A stretch of 64,000 nt of DNA from assembly GCA_024636785.1 (NCBI GenBank), contig JAGXGK010000003.1, positions 1-64,000 on the forward strand, read 5' to 3'. Below, piece after piece: positions 821-5,934 of this stretch. The notes under the pieces are model-generated. The model made no database searches. It was not told the DNA's origin and saw nothing but the letters and a program-made list of their open reading frames with translations. Made by a program: the position numbers and the translations under genes. The stretch is from Gammaproteobacteria bacterium (GTDB lineage: Bacteria; Pseudomonadota; Gammaproteobacteria; SZUA-229). The stretch's first letter is position 1. Every line of letters starts with the position of its first letter.

Positions 821-2569
821 TCAATGAGAAAGGGCAGGCGACACGCCTTTCTGCAGCAAGACAGTGAGCGCCTCTGCCCCCACCGGTCGGCCGAAAAAGT
901 GACCCTGGCCCTCGTCGCAGTGCTGGGCCAGAAGAAAAGCGGCCTGCTCTGGTGTTTCGACGCCCTCAGCAACAACGCGTTGCTTGAGAATCTTACCCAG
1001 GCTAATCACTGCACTGACGATGGCGGCATCGTCCGGGTTGCTGGTTATTTGATTCACGAACGACTGGTCGATCTTCAGGGTATTGATCGGAAACTGCCGC
1101 AGATAACTCAGGCTGGAATAGCCGGTGCCAAAGTCATCGATTGCAAGCTTGACGCCCAGGTCTGCGAGTGCATGCAGAACCGAATCGGCGGACGCGGCAT
1201 CCCGCATGAGGACGCTTTCGGTGAGTTCAAGTTCCAGATAACGCGGTTCCAGACGCGACTCCTCGAGGGTCGAGCGCAAGTATTCGAGAAAGTCCTCGGC
1301 GCGGAACTCGAGCGCGGAGGTGTTGACGGAAACGGGGGTCGGCGGCAAACCCGCATCCTGCCAGGCGCGAGCCTGTAAACAGGCTTCGCGCAGCACCCAG
1401 CGGCCTAGCGGCAGGATCAGGCCGCTGTCTTCGGCGGTGGGCACGAACTGTGCGGGTTCGAGCAGCCCGCGTTGCGGATGCTGCCAGCGGACGAGCGCCT
1501 CGGTGCCGACGATCATGCCGCTGAGGAGATTTATTTTCGGCTGATAGTGCAACACGAATTCCTGCCGTTCCAGTGCGAGGCGCAGGCTGGCCTCGATGGA
1601 TTGACGCGCAATGGCACGGACGGTCATTTCCTGCTCGAAGAATGCGTACGTGTTGCGCCCCTTCTCCTTGGCGTGATACATCGCGGTATCCGCATGATTG
1701 ATCAGGATTTCCTCATCCATACCGTCGTCCGGGTAGATGCTGATGCCGATGCTCGCGCCGATATGCAGATCGTACCGGTCGATGCGGTGCGGCAGTGCAA
1801 TTGCCGCAATAATTTTTTGCGCCGCCAACGCGGCATCTTCCGGATGACCGATGTCGGTAAGCAGCGCCACGAATTCATCTCCGCCCTGGCGGCTGATGGT
1901 GTCCGACTGACGCACGCAGCCCAGCAGGCGCTGGCTCACCGACTGCAACAATTGGTCACCCACACTATGCCCCAGCGAGTCGTTGATGTGCTTGAAGCGA
2001 TCCAGGTCCATGAATACCACTGCGAGCTGCTTGCCGGAACGCCGCGCCAGCGCAATCGCCTGGGTCAGCCTGTCGTGCATCAGGCTTCGGTTGGGCAAGC
2101 CGGTGAGTACATCGTGATGCGCCAGGCGATCCAGTTCGGTCTGCACCGTTTGCACCTGTTCGGCCAACTTGTGCGATTCGATAGTCGCGACGACCAGGTT
2201 CGCGTTGGCTTGCTGCAAGCGGGTCATCTGGTCGGCCGATGTCGACTGCCGATTCTCTGCAATGCAAATTTCGTTTTCCCGTGTGGCGGCGCGCCCTTCG
2301 CGCACATGGGCTTCGCCTTCGCGTGCCTGCACCACGCCCTCACGCTGACCGGCTGCGTCTTCGCGCTGATGCGCGGCATCTTCGCGTGCTGCGGCCATCT
2401 GTCTGCGGCTCAGGAGGGTCGCATCATCGGCACACGTTGCACGCTCCAGACGCCGCCTGTCGCTGCCACGGACGACCCGTACCCGCTCAGCGTGATCGCT
2501 GGAGTCGTCCATCTGTTCACCCGCACCGAAGCGGGAAACACCATCCTTGTCAGTGCTACTCATGCACAC
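821..2569 (-). CDS. GGDEF-EAL bifunctional c-di-GMP enzyme
   Basis: This 582-residue protein is a cytoplasmic cyclic-di-GMP synthase/phosphodiesterase. The GGDEF active-site motif is intact (residues 229-233) and is preceded by an RQSD inhibitory I-site (220-223). The EAL domain starts near residue 325 and keeps EALVRW (357-362), ELTES, the IDDFGTGYSS loop and VVAEGVET. Both activities are therefore possible. There is no membrane segment or PAS domain. Residues 62-103 are six consecutive heptads that each begin Arg-Glu, and a predicted coiled coil (about 104-148) leads into GGDEF. It is the last gene of an operon with the KaiC-like gene, 22 bases downstream of it. The start at 2569 is the first ATG; a second Met lies two codons in. 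Confidence 0.93.
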   Translation of the reverse strand: MCMSSTDKDGVSRFGAGEQMDDSSDHAERVRVVRGSDRRRLERATCADDATLLSRRQMAAAREDAAHQREDAAGQREGVVQAREGEAHVREGRAATRENEICIAENRQSTSADQMTRLQQANANLVVATIESHKLAEQVQTVQTELDRLAHHDVLTGLPNRSLMHDRLTQAIALARRSGKQLAVVFMDLDRFKHINDSLGHSVGDQLLQSVSQRLLGCVRQSDTISRQGGDEFVALLTDIGHPEDAALAAQKIIAAIALPHRIDRYDLHIGASIGISIYPDDGMDEEILINHADTAMYHAKEKGRNTYAFFEQEMTVRAIARQSIEASLRLALERQEFVLHYQPKINLLSGMIVGTEALVRWQHPQRGLLEPAQFVPTAEDSGLILPLGRWVLREACLQARAWQDAGLPPTPVSVNTSALEFRAEDFLEYLRSTLEESRLEPRYLELELTESVLMRDAASADSVLHALADLGVKLAIDDFGTGYSSLSYLRQFPINTLKIDQSFVNQITSNPDDAAIVSAVISLGKILKQRVVAEGVETPEQAAFLLAQHCDEGQGHFFGRPVGAEALTVLLQKGVSPALSH

Positions 2570-2591
2570 CCTCCATTTCGGGTTGTTCCAG

Positions 2592-4046
2592 CTAGGAATT
2601 GGCCCTGGGATGACCGGTCATGATGCCGTCATAATCGGACAGGCGCTCGCCAATTTCAATACCCTCGGCGCTGATGTCGAACATTCGAATGTCCTTGCTG
2701 TGGTCGCTACCGCGTACCTTGATGATCGAGAAGATACGCTTCAACTGTCCTGCGATTTCGACATAGCGCTGCACCAGGATGGCATCGGCGAGAAACGCGC
2801 TGCCACCCGGACTGACACGCAGGTCAGTGTAGCGGTCTTCCAGTTCCGAGGTCATCAGGATGGTTACGCCCTTGCTGGTCAGTTCGGCCACCATCCGATA
2901 CAGCGAACCGCGAAAATCCTCGCTGAACTCGGGTGCCAGTGCCAGTTCGAAACCCGACAGCGAATCGATGACGACGCGCTTGGCCTGCATGCGATCAATC
3001 ATCCGGATCATGTCGTGCAGGGTTTCATCGATCGACAAATCCAGCGAGCGCGTGTCGATTACACCCACCTGCCCGGCACTCACCAGCGCATGTAACCTGT
3101 TGTTCAGCAGTTGGCTCGGACTTTTTTCGAACGCCGCGATCACGCCAGGCTCGCCGCAACGCACCCCTTCGGCGAGAAACGCCGTCGCCAGGATGGTTTT
3201 ACCGGAACCCGAGGGGCCGAGTGCGAGCAGCGAATAACCGGCCGGCAGACCGCCCCCCAGCATCTCATCCAGGCCCGCGACCCCCATGGAAACCCGGTCC
3301 GTAAGGCCAGCGGGGGCCGGTCCGACTGCCTGGTTCGGCTGGACGATCGCCCGCGGAAAAACTCGGAGGCCTGCATCACCAATGCGGAAGGTATGCAAGC
3401 CGGGCGCCTGGGACTGGCCACGCATCTTGACCACCTGCATCTTGCGCACCATGGAATTGCGATGCAAGTTTTGCGACAGCCACAGGATGCCGTCCGCCAC
3501 GGTAAAGACTGGACTCGATTCGGATTCGGACGCCAGGTATTCACCGATCATAAAGGTGGTGGCCTGCCAGCTGGTCATCTGCATGCCGAGCTGCTGCACA
3601 AAGCGCTGCAGATCAAGCACATTCCGGCCTTCGGACTCAGCCGAGTGCACCACGGATCGGAATGAGTCGACGAACACCAGGCTGGGTTCATACTCTTTCA
3701 GCTCGGTGGCGATGCGCGCCAGGACACGGTCGAAATCGCCCTCCAGGAGCTCAGTCGACAGGTTAACGAAGCGAATCGACTGGTTGATCTTACTGTGATC
3801 GAAAAACGTAAATTGCTGCTGATACCGGAGCATCTTCAGGGCAGGCTCTCCGAGCACGGTGAAGAACAGCGCCCGGTTATCCGGCGCGGCCAGCGAGAAC
3901 ATGATCTGGTGGGCGAGTGTGGTTTTTCCGCTTCCCGGTGTGCCCGCAATCAGATTAAACGAGAACTCCGGCAGGCCGCCACCCAGCAACTGGTCGAGGC
4001 CGGGAACACCCGTTGGCAGGCGGCGTATCGTGATCTTGTTATTCAT
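2592..4046 (-). CDS. KaiC-like double-domain RecA/ATPase
   Basis: This 484-residue protein has two tandem KaiC domains. Walker A motifs are at residues 35-43 (GTPGSGKTT) and 277-284 (GPSGSGKT). Walker B-type strands are LVFVDSF (123-129) and VVIDSLSGFE in the second half. The C-terminal half keeps the KVRGSDHSKDIR element seen in KaiC CII. No kaiA or kaiB is nearby, so this is a KaiC-like signalling ATPase rather than evidence for a clock. The start at 4046 was chosen because CAAGGAGCC precedes it at good spacing; 17 upstream in-frame codons overlap the previous gene. It overlaps the upstream gene by 8 bases and is followed by a GGDEF-EAL gene, which suggests coupling of KaiC to c-di-GMP signalling. 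Confidence 0.9.
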   Translation of the reverse strand: MNNKITIRRLPTGVPGLDQLLGGGLPEFSFNLIAGTPGSGKTTLAHQIMFSLAAPDNRALFFTVLGEPALKMLRYQQQFTFFDHSKINQSIRFVNLSTELLEGDFDRVLARIATELKEYEPSLVFVDSFRSVVHSAESEGRNVLDLQRFVQQLGMQMTSWQATTFMIGEYLASESESSPVFTVADGILWLSQNLHRNSMVRKMQVVKMRGQSQAPGLHTFRIGDAGLRVFPRAIVQPNQAVGPAPAGLTDRVSMGVAGLDEMLGGGLPAGYSLLALGPSGSGKTILATAFLAEGVRCGEPGVIAAFEKSPSQLLNNRLHALVSAGQVGVIDTRSLDLSIDETLHDMIRMIDRMQAKRVVIDSLSGFELALAPEFSEDFRGSLYRMVAELTSKGVTILMTSELEDRYTDLRVSPGGSAFLADAILVQRYVEIAGQLKRIFSIIKVRGSDHSKDIRMFDISAEGIEIGERLSDYDGIMTGHPRANS

Positions 4047-4470
4047 TGTTGGGCTCCTTGTCGGGCGTAACTGAAGCAAGATTGCCCCAGACCGCACGTA
4101 AGATGCTGGATATCAATTGTTCGCCAATCAGCGAAGCCAGGATGTCGGTAAATATAGTTAGCAACAGGCTGTGGGCAGCGCGGGCATGGGCCTGTGTTTG
4201 CTCAGCCAGACGCATGCCTAATTCCGCAAAGCGGTGGCTGTTAGGGGGGGTCTGCGGTGACAAAGTACCTGATGGAAGCCAGGGAAAGGTGGCTTGGGCC
4301 AGGTGTAGGCTTCGCTCGTATAGCGAAGCAAAACCGGCCTCACCGATGATCGTAATAATCTCGTCGGCCAGTTGCTGCCAATGGCCCATTGCGGCATCCG
4401 CAATGTTTTCAGGCTGCTGCTCCGTGAGGCTGGCAATGATTTGCTGACGTTGCAGGGTGAGGTCTTCCAT
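4039..4470 (-). CDS. hypothetical protein of the KaiC/GGDEF-EAL operon
   Basis: This 143-residue protein begins MEDLTLQRQQ and is not recognised. It reads as a mostly helical soluble protein: an acidic N-terminal half (QQPENIADAA, EIITIIGEAG), a proline-rich centre near residues 75-90, and a helical C-terminal half (LIGEQLISSILRAVWG) before a charged DKEPNNE tail. Its stop lies 8 bases inside the KaiC-like gene. Its start overlaps the stop of a 32-codon ORF by one base (TGATG), and no Shine-Dalgarno sequence precedes it. Translation is therefore probably coupled at both ends. I infer a partner or sensor for the KaiC-like ATPase from position only. Confidence 0.7.
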   Translation of the reverse strand: MEDLTLQRQQIIASLTEQQPENIADAAMGHWQQLADEIITIIGEAGFASLYERSLHLAQATFPWLPSGTLSPQTPPNSHRFAELGMRLAEQTQAHARAAHSLLLTIFTDILASLIGEQLISSILRAVWGNLASVTPDKEPNNE

Positions 4471-4568
4471 CAGAACGCGATCAGCAGGCAGTCGGGATGA
4501 CCGGCGCGTGCGGCATGCAGCCGTGCGTCGGGTGTAATGTCTCCAGAGCAAAAAACTGGAGTGCCCAT
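4470..4568 (-). CDS. 32-residue leader or small protein at the head of the KaiC operon
   Basis: This short ORF begins MGTPVFCSGDI and ends PDCLLIAF. A strong AAGGAGGG Shine-Dalgarno sequence lies about nine bases before its ATG. Its TGA overlaps the ATG of the next gene (TGATG), and that gene has no ribosome-binding site of its own. This arrangement suggests the ORF is translated and feeds ribosomes into the operon. No family is recognised. It has two cysteines. It may be a real small protein, a leader peptide, or the frameshifted remains of a larger gene. Confidence 0.4.
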   Translation of the reverse strand: MGTPVFCSGDITPDARLHAARAGHPDCLLIAF

Positions 4569-4910
4569 ATTCGTCTTCCCTCCTTGAAGCCTGTGGCAAG
4601 TTGACTGGTCACACTGATCGTTTGCCGGTGATATCGTAGACCACGCGATAGATGACACTCACCTCGTTGACGATACAATAATTGTAAATACCAACCACAT
4701 GGAGAATCAAAAAATCTTTTTAGATTGACGTAATAATCCTGATTTTTGTAATGGACATCCATTGAAGCATTGGTATAACGGGGCCGTGACATGATCAACT
4801 CCTTAATGCAATATTTGGTTAGCATTTAAAATATTACATGAAAAGGCCTGAGCCTATTCCCTGAAAAAAGGAAGGAAGTCAGTTAAAGCTAAGAATATTC
4901 GCCATCCATA
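4569..4910. other. intergenic region upstream of the KaiC operon
   Basis: This AT-richer stretch presumably carries the operon promoter, which I cannot place with confidence. A minus-strand ATG at 4792 has a good AAGGAG sequence seven bases upstream and would encode a protein starting MSRPRYTNASMDVHYKNQ. The translation soon becomes low in family-like features and runs into the small ORF below it. It may be a decayed gene; I do not call it. Confidence 0.4.
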
Positions 4911-5252
4911 GATCCTGTAAATTAAATTGTGTAACTCCCCATTATTAACTACCTTCCCTACATGGGAATAATAATGGAGAACAACATGCACCAAGAAAAA
5001 ATAAAAGCCCTGGCTGAAGAGCTGGCCAAAGACCTCAAAACACCCGCCGACCTCAACGCGCTCAGTGCACAGCTCACCAAGATCACCGTTGAGGCAGCTC
5101 TTAATGCTGAAATGCAGGAACACCTGGGTTACGCCCCCTACGAGGCGAAAGGTCGCGCAAACACCAATAGTCGCAATGGCTATACCACCAAGACGCTCAA
5201 AGGTGACCATGGTGAAATCGAGATAGCGACGCCGCGGGATCGGGAGGCGACC
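4911..5252 (+). mobile_element. left end of a truncated IS256-family element
   Basis: The stretch at about 4911-4940 (GATCCTGTAAATTAAATTGTG) resembles the terminal inverted repeat of IS256-family elements. The transposase start follows about 40-60 bases later. Homology stops abruptly near 5252, where a REP-associated transposase remnant begins on the opposite strand. The right end and the catalytic DDE region are absent, so the element is dead. Confidence 0.6.
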
Positions 5253-5441: not shown

Positions 5442-5934
5442 AAAAATTTATGACCGACCGCTAATGGCCGATAACATACATACACTTTTTCTGCCTTACT
5501 TCCCTGTACAACCTTACCCAGATTTCAATTTTGGTAAGTTCAATTCGCATTGAACTGCAACTAAATTTGACATGATCAAATTTGAACGTACTCAGTGCGG
5601 CCCGTAGGGCAAACCACTGGATATGTTTTGTAATTGAGGACTGTGACCAGGTTTACAAAAAATAAACCCGTGCCGCAAAAAACGTAGAAAAGATTTTTCT
5701 TTTGTGGCACAAGAGCTATTAAAACATAAGGCATTCTTAAACAGTGTTATGCGATTGGAATCGCACCTACAAAAAGATTTCCTATGCGTTCTCTGCGACC
5801 TCTGCGGTGAAAAGCTTTAGCTCTTAAACTTCGATATCGCGACCATGCCTGACAATATAGCTACGAATCAACAATAGATCTTATTTTTCCTCTGCGCCTC
5901 AGCGCCTCTGCGGTGAAAATCTTTTCCTCTTCAA
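5442..5934. repeat. non-coding region with two CTCTGCG-type repeat arms
   Basis: No gene is seen. Two arms of a dispersed repeat are present: 5784-5814 (GCGTTCTCTGCGACCTCTGC then GGTGAAAAGC) and 5888-5922 (CTCTGCGCCTCAGCGCCTCT then GCGGTGAAAATC). Related arms, usually in inverted pairs, recur near 25.0, 28.0, 46.4 and 52.2 kb. Here both arms have the same orientation, so no long hairpin forms. A short GATTGGAATCGCACCTAC segment near 5754 resembles the GCGAATTTATTCGC-type hairpin at 24.2 kb. Confidence 0.7.

Follow-up and report, generated by a model that had tools for sequence, protein, structure and literature searches.

A putative clock-free KaiC signalling operon built around a small, constantly linked helical partner of KaiC

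Many heterotrophic bacteria carry KaiC homologues, which raises the question of what these proteins do where KaiA and KaiB are missing. An operon from a member of the Gammaproteobacteria (assembly GCA_024636785.1) bears on this question. It lies on the minus strand of the first 64,000 nucleotides of contig JAGXGK010000003.1 (hereafter the window), whose left edge is the contig end, in a genome that is 72.55% complete. A 32-aa mini-ORF (4470..4568) is followed by a gene for a 143-aa protein (4039..4470), a gene for a 484-aa KaiC-like double P-loop ATPase (2592..4046), and a gene for a 580-aa protein with a coiled coil, a GGDEF domain, and an EAL domain (821..2563). This layout agrees with a first-pass annotation of the same DNA: the mini-ORF (ATG 4568 to TGA 4470) overlaps the start of the 143-aa gene as TGATG, the kaiC ATG at 4046 falls within an 8-nt overlap with the 143-aa gene (ATGAATAA), and the GGDEF-EAL gene comes after kaiC. 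The annotation had taken the operon for a non-clock timing or energy-sensing switch headed by a translationally coupled mini-ORF. The reading that we favor, with modest confidence, is a clock-free KaiC signalling operon that was horizontally acquired and in which the 143-aa protein acts as KaiC partner and adaptor to a c-di-GMP output.

The KaiC-like ATPase and the clock question

The 484-aa protein matches Pfam KaiC (PF06745) over two domains (E 1.4e-68) and a KaiC in the PDB (E 3.6e-56). Across the family alignment, both domains keep invariant Walker A and B residues, as befits two RecA/KaiC ATPase domains. Each domain has one catalytic Glu (E67 and E307), the paired Glu being replaced by G66 in the first domain and mostly by K308 in the second. 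These residues and the overall homology suggest an ATP-binding, probably ATP-hydrolysing RecA-type ring. The autophosphorylation sites of the clock are missing: the alignment columns of S431 and T432 hold Ala and Phe in 80 of the 81 family members (A417 and F418 in the window).

That the KaiC homologue drives c-di-GMP as a rudimentary clock or as an hourglass timer is thus a highly improbable reading. The Pfam and PDB matches speak for it in a general way, and hourglass proposals exist, in excerpted text of the Ramlibacter tataouinensis genome paper (PMC3164672), for non-cyanobacterial KaiC proteins with intact sites. Both phosphorylation positions are lost here, however, and the same excerpts hold that a cyclic mechanism probably cannot be sustained by a KaiC that is unable to phosphorylate two residues. 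The score against the NCBIfam circadian KaiC equivalog (TIGR02655) is 157.8 bits, far below the cut-off of 546.25 bits, and most carriers of the operon appear to do without KaiB, which was not found in the incomplete genome of the window and is absent from 21 of 26 carrier genomes. Together with a GGDEF-EAL fusion described below, these observations uphold the first half of the earlier proposal, a non-clock signalling module with a c-di-GMP enzyme, and leave its timing element without backing. A putative ATP-dependent switch is a plausible description of the ATPase.

A small helical partner and its candidate outputs

The 143-aa protein had been described as unrecognised, and it matches no model in Pfam, NCBIfam, or PADLOC and no PDB sequence, the only PDB hit being a designed protein at E 0.033. 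An AlphaFold2 model (pLDDT 81.7, pTM 0.78) is all helical, with five helices, and a fold search of the PDB with this model returned no match (the top Foldseek hit had E 2.9, and the top VIA hit, a designed protein, had Z 5.1). The model supports no fold assignment beyond all-alpha. Most conserved positions of the family are hydrophobic or are Gly/Trp, W31 and W64 among them; R53 is conserved as well, and the family alignment contains no conserved His, Asp, or Cys, which argues against a role as an enzyme or in phosphotransfer. An HPt-like phosphotransfer protein was rejected on this ground, there being no conserved His or Asp. A defence system was likewise considered and set aside: the 143-aa protein matches no PADLOC model, and KaiC gives only weak matches, which cover mainly the P-loop region.

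The family is best characterized by its genomic neighborhood. A homologue lies directly upstream of kaiC at all 80 loci of the closest KaiC relatives (62–91% identity to the window KaiC), a figure conditioned on close relatives, as these are the best 80 of 492 confirmed, at about 62% identity or more. Most relatives have the two genes overlapping by 8 or 4 nt, and the 143-aa ORF is broken or split at four loci (L042, L043, L049, and L088). Conservation of the gene beside kaiC had been set beforehand as one of the results on which the first-pass reading should stand or fall, and on this point it stands. A reverse search, in which a profile of the small-protein family was run against 398 genomes of the phylum, found three more carriers, each with an adjacent kaiC; with G135 and G181, in which kaiC also adjoins the 143-aa gene, this gives five further genomes in all. 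The exception is a Polaromonas plasmid that carries the 143-aa gene with no kaiC found nearby. KaiC homologues at 33–49% identity (L019–L021) are without the 143-aa gene, and the pairing belongs to one KaiC subfamily. Divergence of the 143-aa protein and divergence of KaiC are correlated (r = 0.90), which may only reflect shared ancestry.

Three loci show other arrangements of these genes. An Acidithiobacillus MAG (L089, 4620–10245) has two divergent 143-aa/KaiC pairs facing around one GGDEF-EAL gene. The 143-aa-KaiC operon of G135 comes just after genes for a second, different KaiC homologue, which carries a C-terminal coil, and for a PAS/GAF protein (L017, 8338–10257 and 10627–12543), and then continues with a hybrid kinase and a GGDEF-EAL gene. 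The locus of G181 (L018, 6865–8515) has lost the start of the 143-aa gene and approximately residues 149–190 of kaiC and retains an intact GGDEF-EAL gene, possibly as a decaying copy or through an assembly fault.

If the small protein is a constant neighbor of KaiC, the gene on the other side of kaiC is a variable one. In the window, this third gene encodes an N-terminal heptad coil followed by a QANANLVVATIE-like segment (2144..2401), a GGDEF domain (1652..2122; E 4.6e-51), and an EAL domain (884..1591; E 7.9e-73), and its translation contains the GGDEF, RxxD I-site, EAL, and DDFGTG motifs. Among the relatives with a GGDEF-EAL third gene, the GGDEF, I-site, and ExLxRW motifs are intact in 30 of 30 and a DDFGTG-type motif in 28 of 30. 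By its domains and catalytic motifs, the third protein is a predicted bifunctional c-di-GMP enzyme. The gene after kaiC encodes a signalling protein at 56 of the 80 loci, either of GGDEF type (31 loci, comprising 30 GGDEF-EAL genes and one GGDEF fragment) or a histidine kinase (25 loci). At the other 24, neither type or a contig end follows kaiC, and most of these have a histidine kinase just upstream. Some loci carry a coil-kinase-REC gene and then a coil-GGDEF-EAL gene, and a version on a Caballeronia plasmid unites GGDEF and histidine kinase in one protein. The N-terminal coil is common to the GGDEF-EAL and the histidine-kinase outputs, which suggests that it forms a common docking element.

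Two fusions join the small protein to the signalling side. In L102, a 143-aa domain, a coil, and GGDEF-EAL form a single protein, with kaiC following; in L099, a second copy of the 143-aa protein stands behind a domain that, as read from sequence, is receiver-like. Each kind was seen once among the 80 loci. Such rare fusions suggest that the small protein links the ATPase to c-di-GMP or histidine-kinase signals.

We propose that the 143-aa protein, which accompanies KaiC at all 80 loci of this subfamily, in most of them through overlapping genes, is a dedicated KaiC partner and most likely an adaptor that binds KaiC, senses its ATP state, and passes this nucleotide or conformational state to the output enzyme. 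The adaptor role is favored because of the GGDEF-EAL and receiver-like fusions and because the protein, whose model has no known structural relative, has no conserved catalytic or phosphorylatable residues. The output here would be a GGDEF-EAL enzyme whose motifs are intact for both making and breaking c-di-GMP; in relatives, a hybrid histidine kinase that shares the N-terminal coil would often take its place. Alternatively, the small protein might assist KaiC assembly, act as its chaperone, or inhibit it, and make no direct contact with the output enzyme. Its pairing with KaiC is constant where the third gene varies, and its small size, helical nature, and translation immediately before kaiC would suit such a role; the two fusions, which join it to GGDEF-EAL in one case and to a receiver-like domain in the other, speak for a place on the signalling side, and we judge this alternative unlikely.

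More tentatively than for the operon itself, and at slightly less than even confidence, we hypothesize that the 143-aa family represents an adaptor domain, not described before and dedicated to KaiC, through which a KaiC ATPase that does not phosphorylate itself is coupled to c-di-GMP turnover or to a histidine-kinase phosphorelay. It would form part of a nucleotide-driven switch made from clock parts without a clock, found in Beta- and Gammaproteobacteria and spread partly by horizontal transfer. A constantly linked partner with natural output fusions points to a specific physical path by which KaiC could act on c-di-GMP, one that is testable with three purified proteins. If the hypothesis is true, signalling annotation gains a new domain family.

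Translation starts and the leader region

The first-pass annotation gave the mini-ORF the only strong Shine-Dalgarno (SD) sequence of the operon and the 143-aa gene none. Anti-SD duplex energies bear out the second statement, with +0.6 kcal/mol at the 143-aa start, and half of the first. The mini-ORF SD (AAGGAGG, 4579..4585) is indeed the strongest of the operon at -11.9 kcal/mol, but two other genes have strong SDs as well: an AAGGAG lies 7 nt before the kaiC start (4054..4059, -7.7 kcal/mol; conserved in relatives) and the GGDEF-EAL gene has GGAGGG (2569..2574, -9.8 kcal/mol), both in the top four among the 34 long ORFs of the window. Over 76 relatives, the mean energy is -6.9 kcal/mol at the kaiC start and -1.8 at the 143-aa start, as against -2.35 at random positions. 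Absence of an SD from the 143-aa gene is a property of the whole family, whether a mini-ORF is present or not, so the mini-ORF of the window does not explain it; kaiC, with a strong SD of its own, needs no coupling from upstream. A 143-aa start that lacks an SD, combined with a strong kaiC SD, may hold the partner sub-stoichiometric to KaiC.

The mini-ORF itself is a local feature. Only seven relatives (L027, L029, L030, L032, L034, L035, and L039) have its SD-ATG block, which reads AAGGAGGGAAGACGAATATGG in the window, and the pattern of SD, start codon, and nearby stop is found in these eight loci, the window included, and is absent from the wider family. The ORF that starts from this block stops between -10 and +1 of the 143-aa ATG in all eight despite a shift of frame: the shared ATG opens a frame that leads to TGATG in the window and L029 and a different frame in the others, and in L026, L027, and the L030 group (L030, L032, L034, L035, and L039) the stop lies about 10 nt before the 143-aa ATG. 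Between the window and L029, differences in the mini-ORF are spread evenly over codon positions (10/9/7), while those in kaiC cluster in third positions (84 third, 44 first, and 21 second). The conserved reading frame and codon constraint of a leader peptide were therefore not found in these comparisons, and there is no sign of a conserved peptide. The narrow clade, unconserved frame, and even substitutions give the mini-ORF no backing as a general head of this operon, contrary to the first-pass annotation. An alternative SD-led ORF of 103 aa (4481..4792; SD AAGGAG, -8.7 kcal/mol) spans most of the mini-ORF bases in a different frame. Its last codons run in the frame used in relatives and end with a TGA that lies 10 nt upstream of the 143-aa ATG, and no convincing homologue of its N-terminal part was found.

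A mini-ORF whose peptide is irrelevant could still act as a translated leader, termination at TGATG delivering ribosomes to the SD-less 143-aa gene. Such translational coupling would account for the strength of the mini-ORF SD and for an ORF end that stays close to the 143-aa ATG in eight loci even as the frame shifts, and SD-led ORFs ending near the 143-aa start occur at 17 of 79 loci, compared with about 7% in shuffles. That excess comes largely from one clade, however, and most relatives have no such ORF before a 143-aa gene that is equally SD-less. The missing coding constraint and the second SD-led ORF that overlaps the mini-ORF in the window also count against coupling, which we consider somewhat doubtful. 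It concerns expression and could hold together with the adaptor explanation. For the operon as a whole, the mini-ORF is a side issue, and the 143-aa gene is the interesting part.

Other elements recur in the leaders. A CTATACT-type element, which we take to resemble a sigma-S -10 box, is present in 18 of 74 loci, mostly 71–88 nt before the 143-aa start, compared with 3% in shuffles; in L040, L041, L046, and L048, for instance, the distance is about 71–77 nt. Many of these loci then have a conserved GTCGTTATATCGACC...ATTATTGATATTTTTT segment directly before the T-rich, SD-less 143-aa ATG. Upstream of the mini-ORF in the window, a short minus-strand ORF (4609–4710) ends in SVIYRVVYDITGKRSV and is possibly the remnant of a repeated element; no second copy of the 4590–5000 stretch was found in the genome.

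Origin of the cassette and closest known systems

The operon is absent from all six congeners and from the sampled members of the family, and its nearest relatives are in MAGs labelled Thiobacillus, Rhizobium, Thiogranum, and Marinobacter, labels that may be wrong. Culturable carriers include Janthinobacterium and Sulfuriferula. From the absence in congeners and the position of the nearest relatives, horizontal acquisition is the simplest reading. A truncated transposase of the Mutator family (IS256-type; PF00872, 4962–5282) lies upstream of the operon, and this fragment at its border suggests mobile-element activity. Between this remnant and the gene that comes next, the intergenic DNA contains a CTCTGCG..CCTCTGCGGTGAAAA repeat in two imperfect copies (5788–5920).

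A recent acquisition with no working role in this genome would fit the absence from congeners and the adjoining transposase remnant, and the related G181 copy lacks the 143-aa gene start and part of kaiC. In the window, by contrast, all three main ORFs are full length with intact motifs, and comparison of kaiC with four close relatives gives 61–84 third-position but only 14–21 second-position differences, a concentration that indicates purifying selection along the lineage. We regard a cassette without function as improbable and retain the reading of a horizontally acquired signalling operon.

How does this operon compare with known KaiC systems? Like the KaiC of the Synechococcus elongatus KaiABC oscillator, the window KaiC is a double RecA-like protein with Walker A and B motifs in both domains; unlike it, the window KaiC has lost the phosphosites, no KaiB was found, and the output gene is GGDEF-EAL. 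Pseudomonas KaiC-like proteins resemble it as non-clock proteins of heterotrophs, and work of Terrettaz et al. from 2023, cited in PMC11372060, is said, by its title, to concern these proteins in stress resistance and biofilm formation. KaiC beside GGDEF/EAL genes is already known, and the 143-aa partner family appears undescribed, no description having been found in the literature searched, which covered few subscription journals. In excerpted text of the R. tataouinensis genome paper (2011, PMC3164672), a third ("black") group of bacterial KaiC homologues has no conserved phosphosites and lies near histidine kinase, REC, or GGDEF/EAL genes. The window KaiC has the features of this group, in that its phosphosites are not conserved (the group is defined by none or only one) and a GGDEF/EAL gene is adjacent; like the group, it has no adjoining kaiB, and the degenerate phosphosite profiles of the group include AF. 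Those excerpts mention no 143-aa partner, whereas the subfamily of the window has a constantly linked partner with an overlapping gene and a coil common to its swapped outputs.
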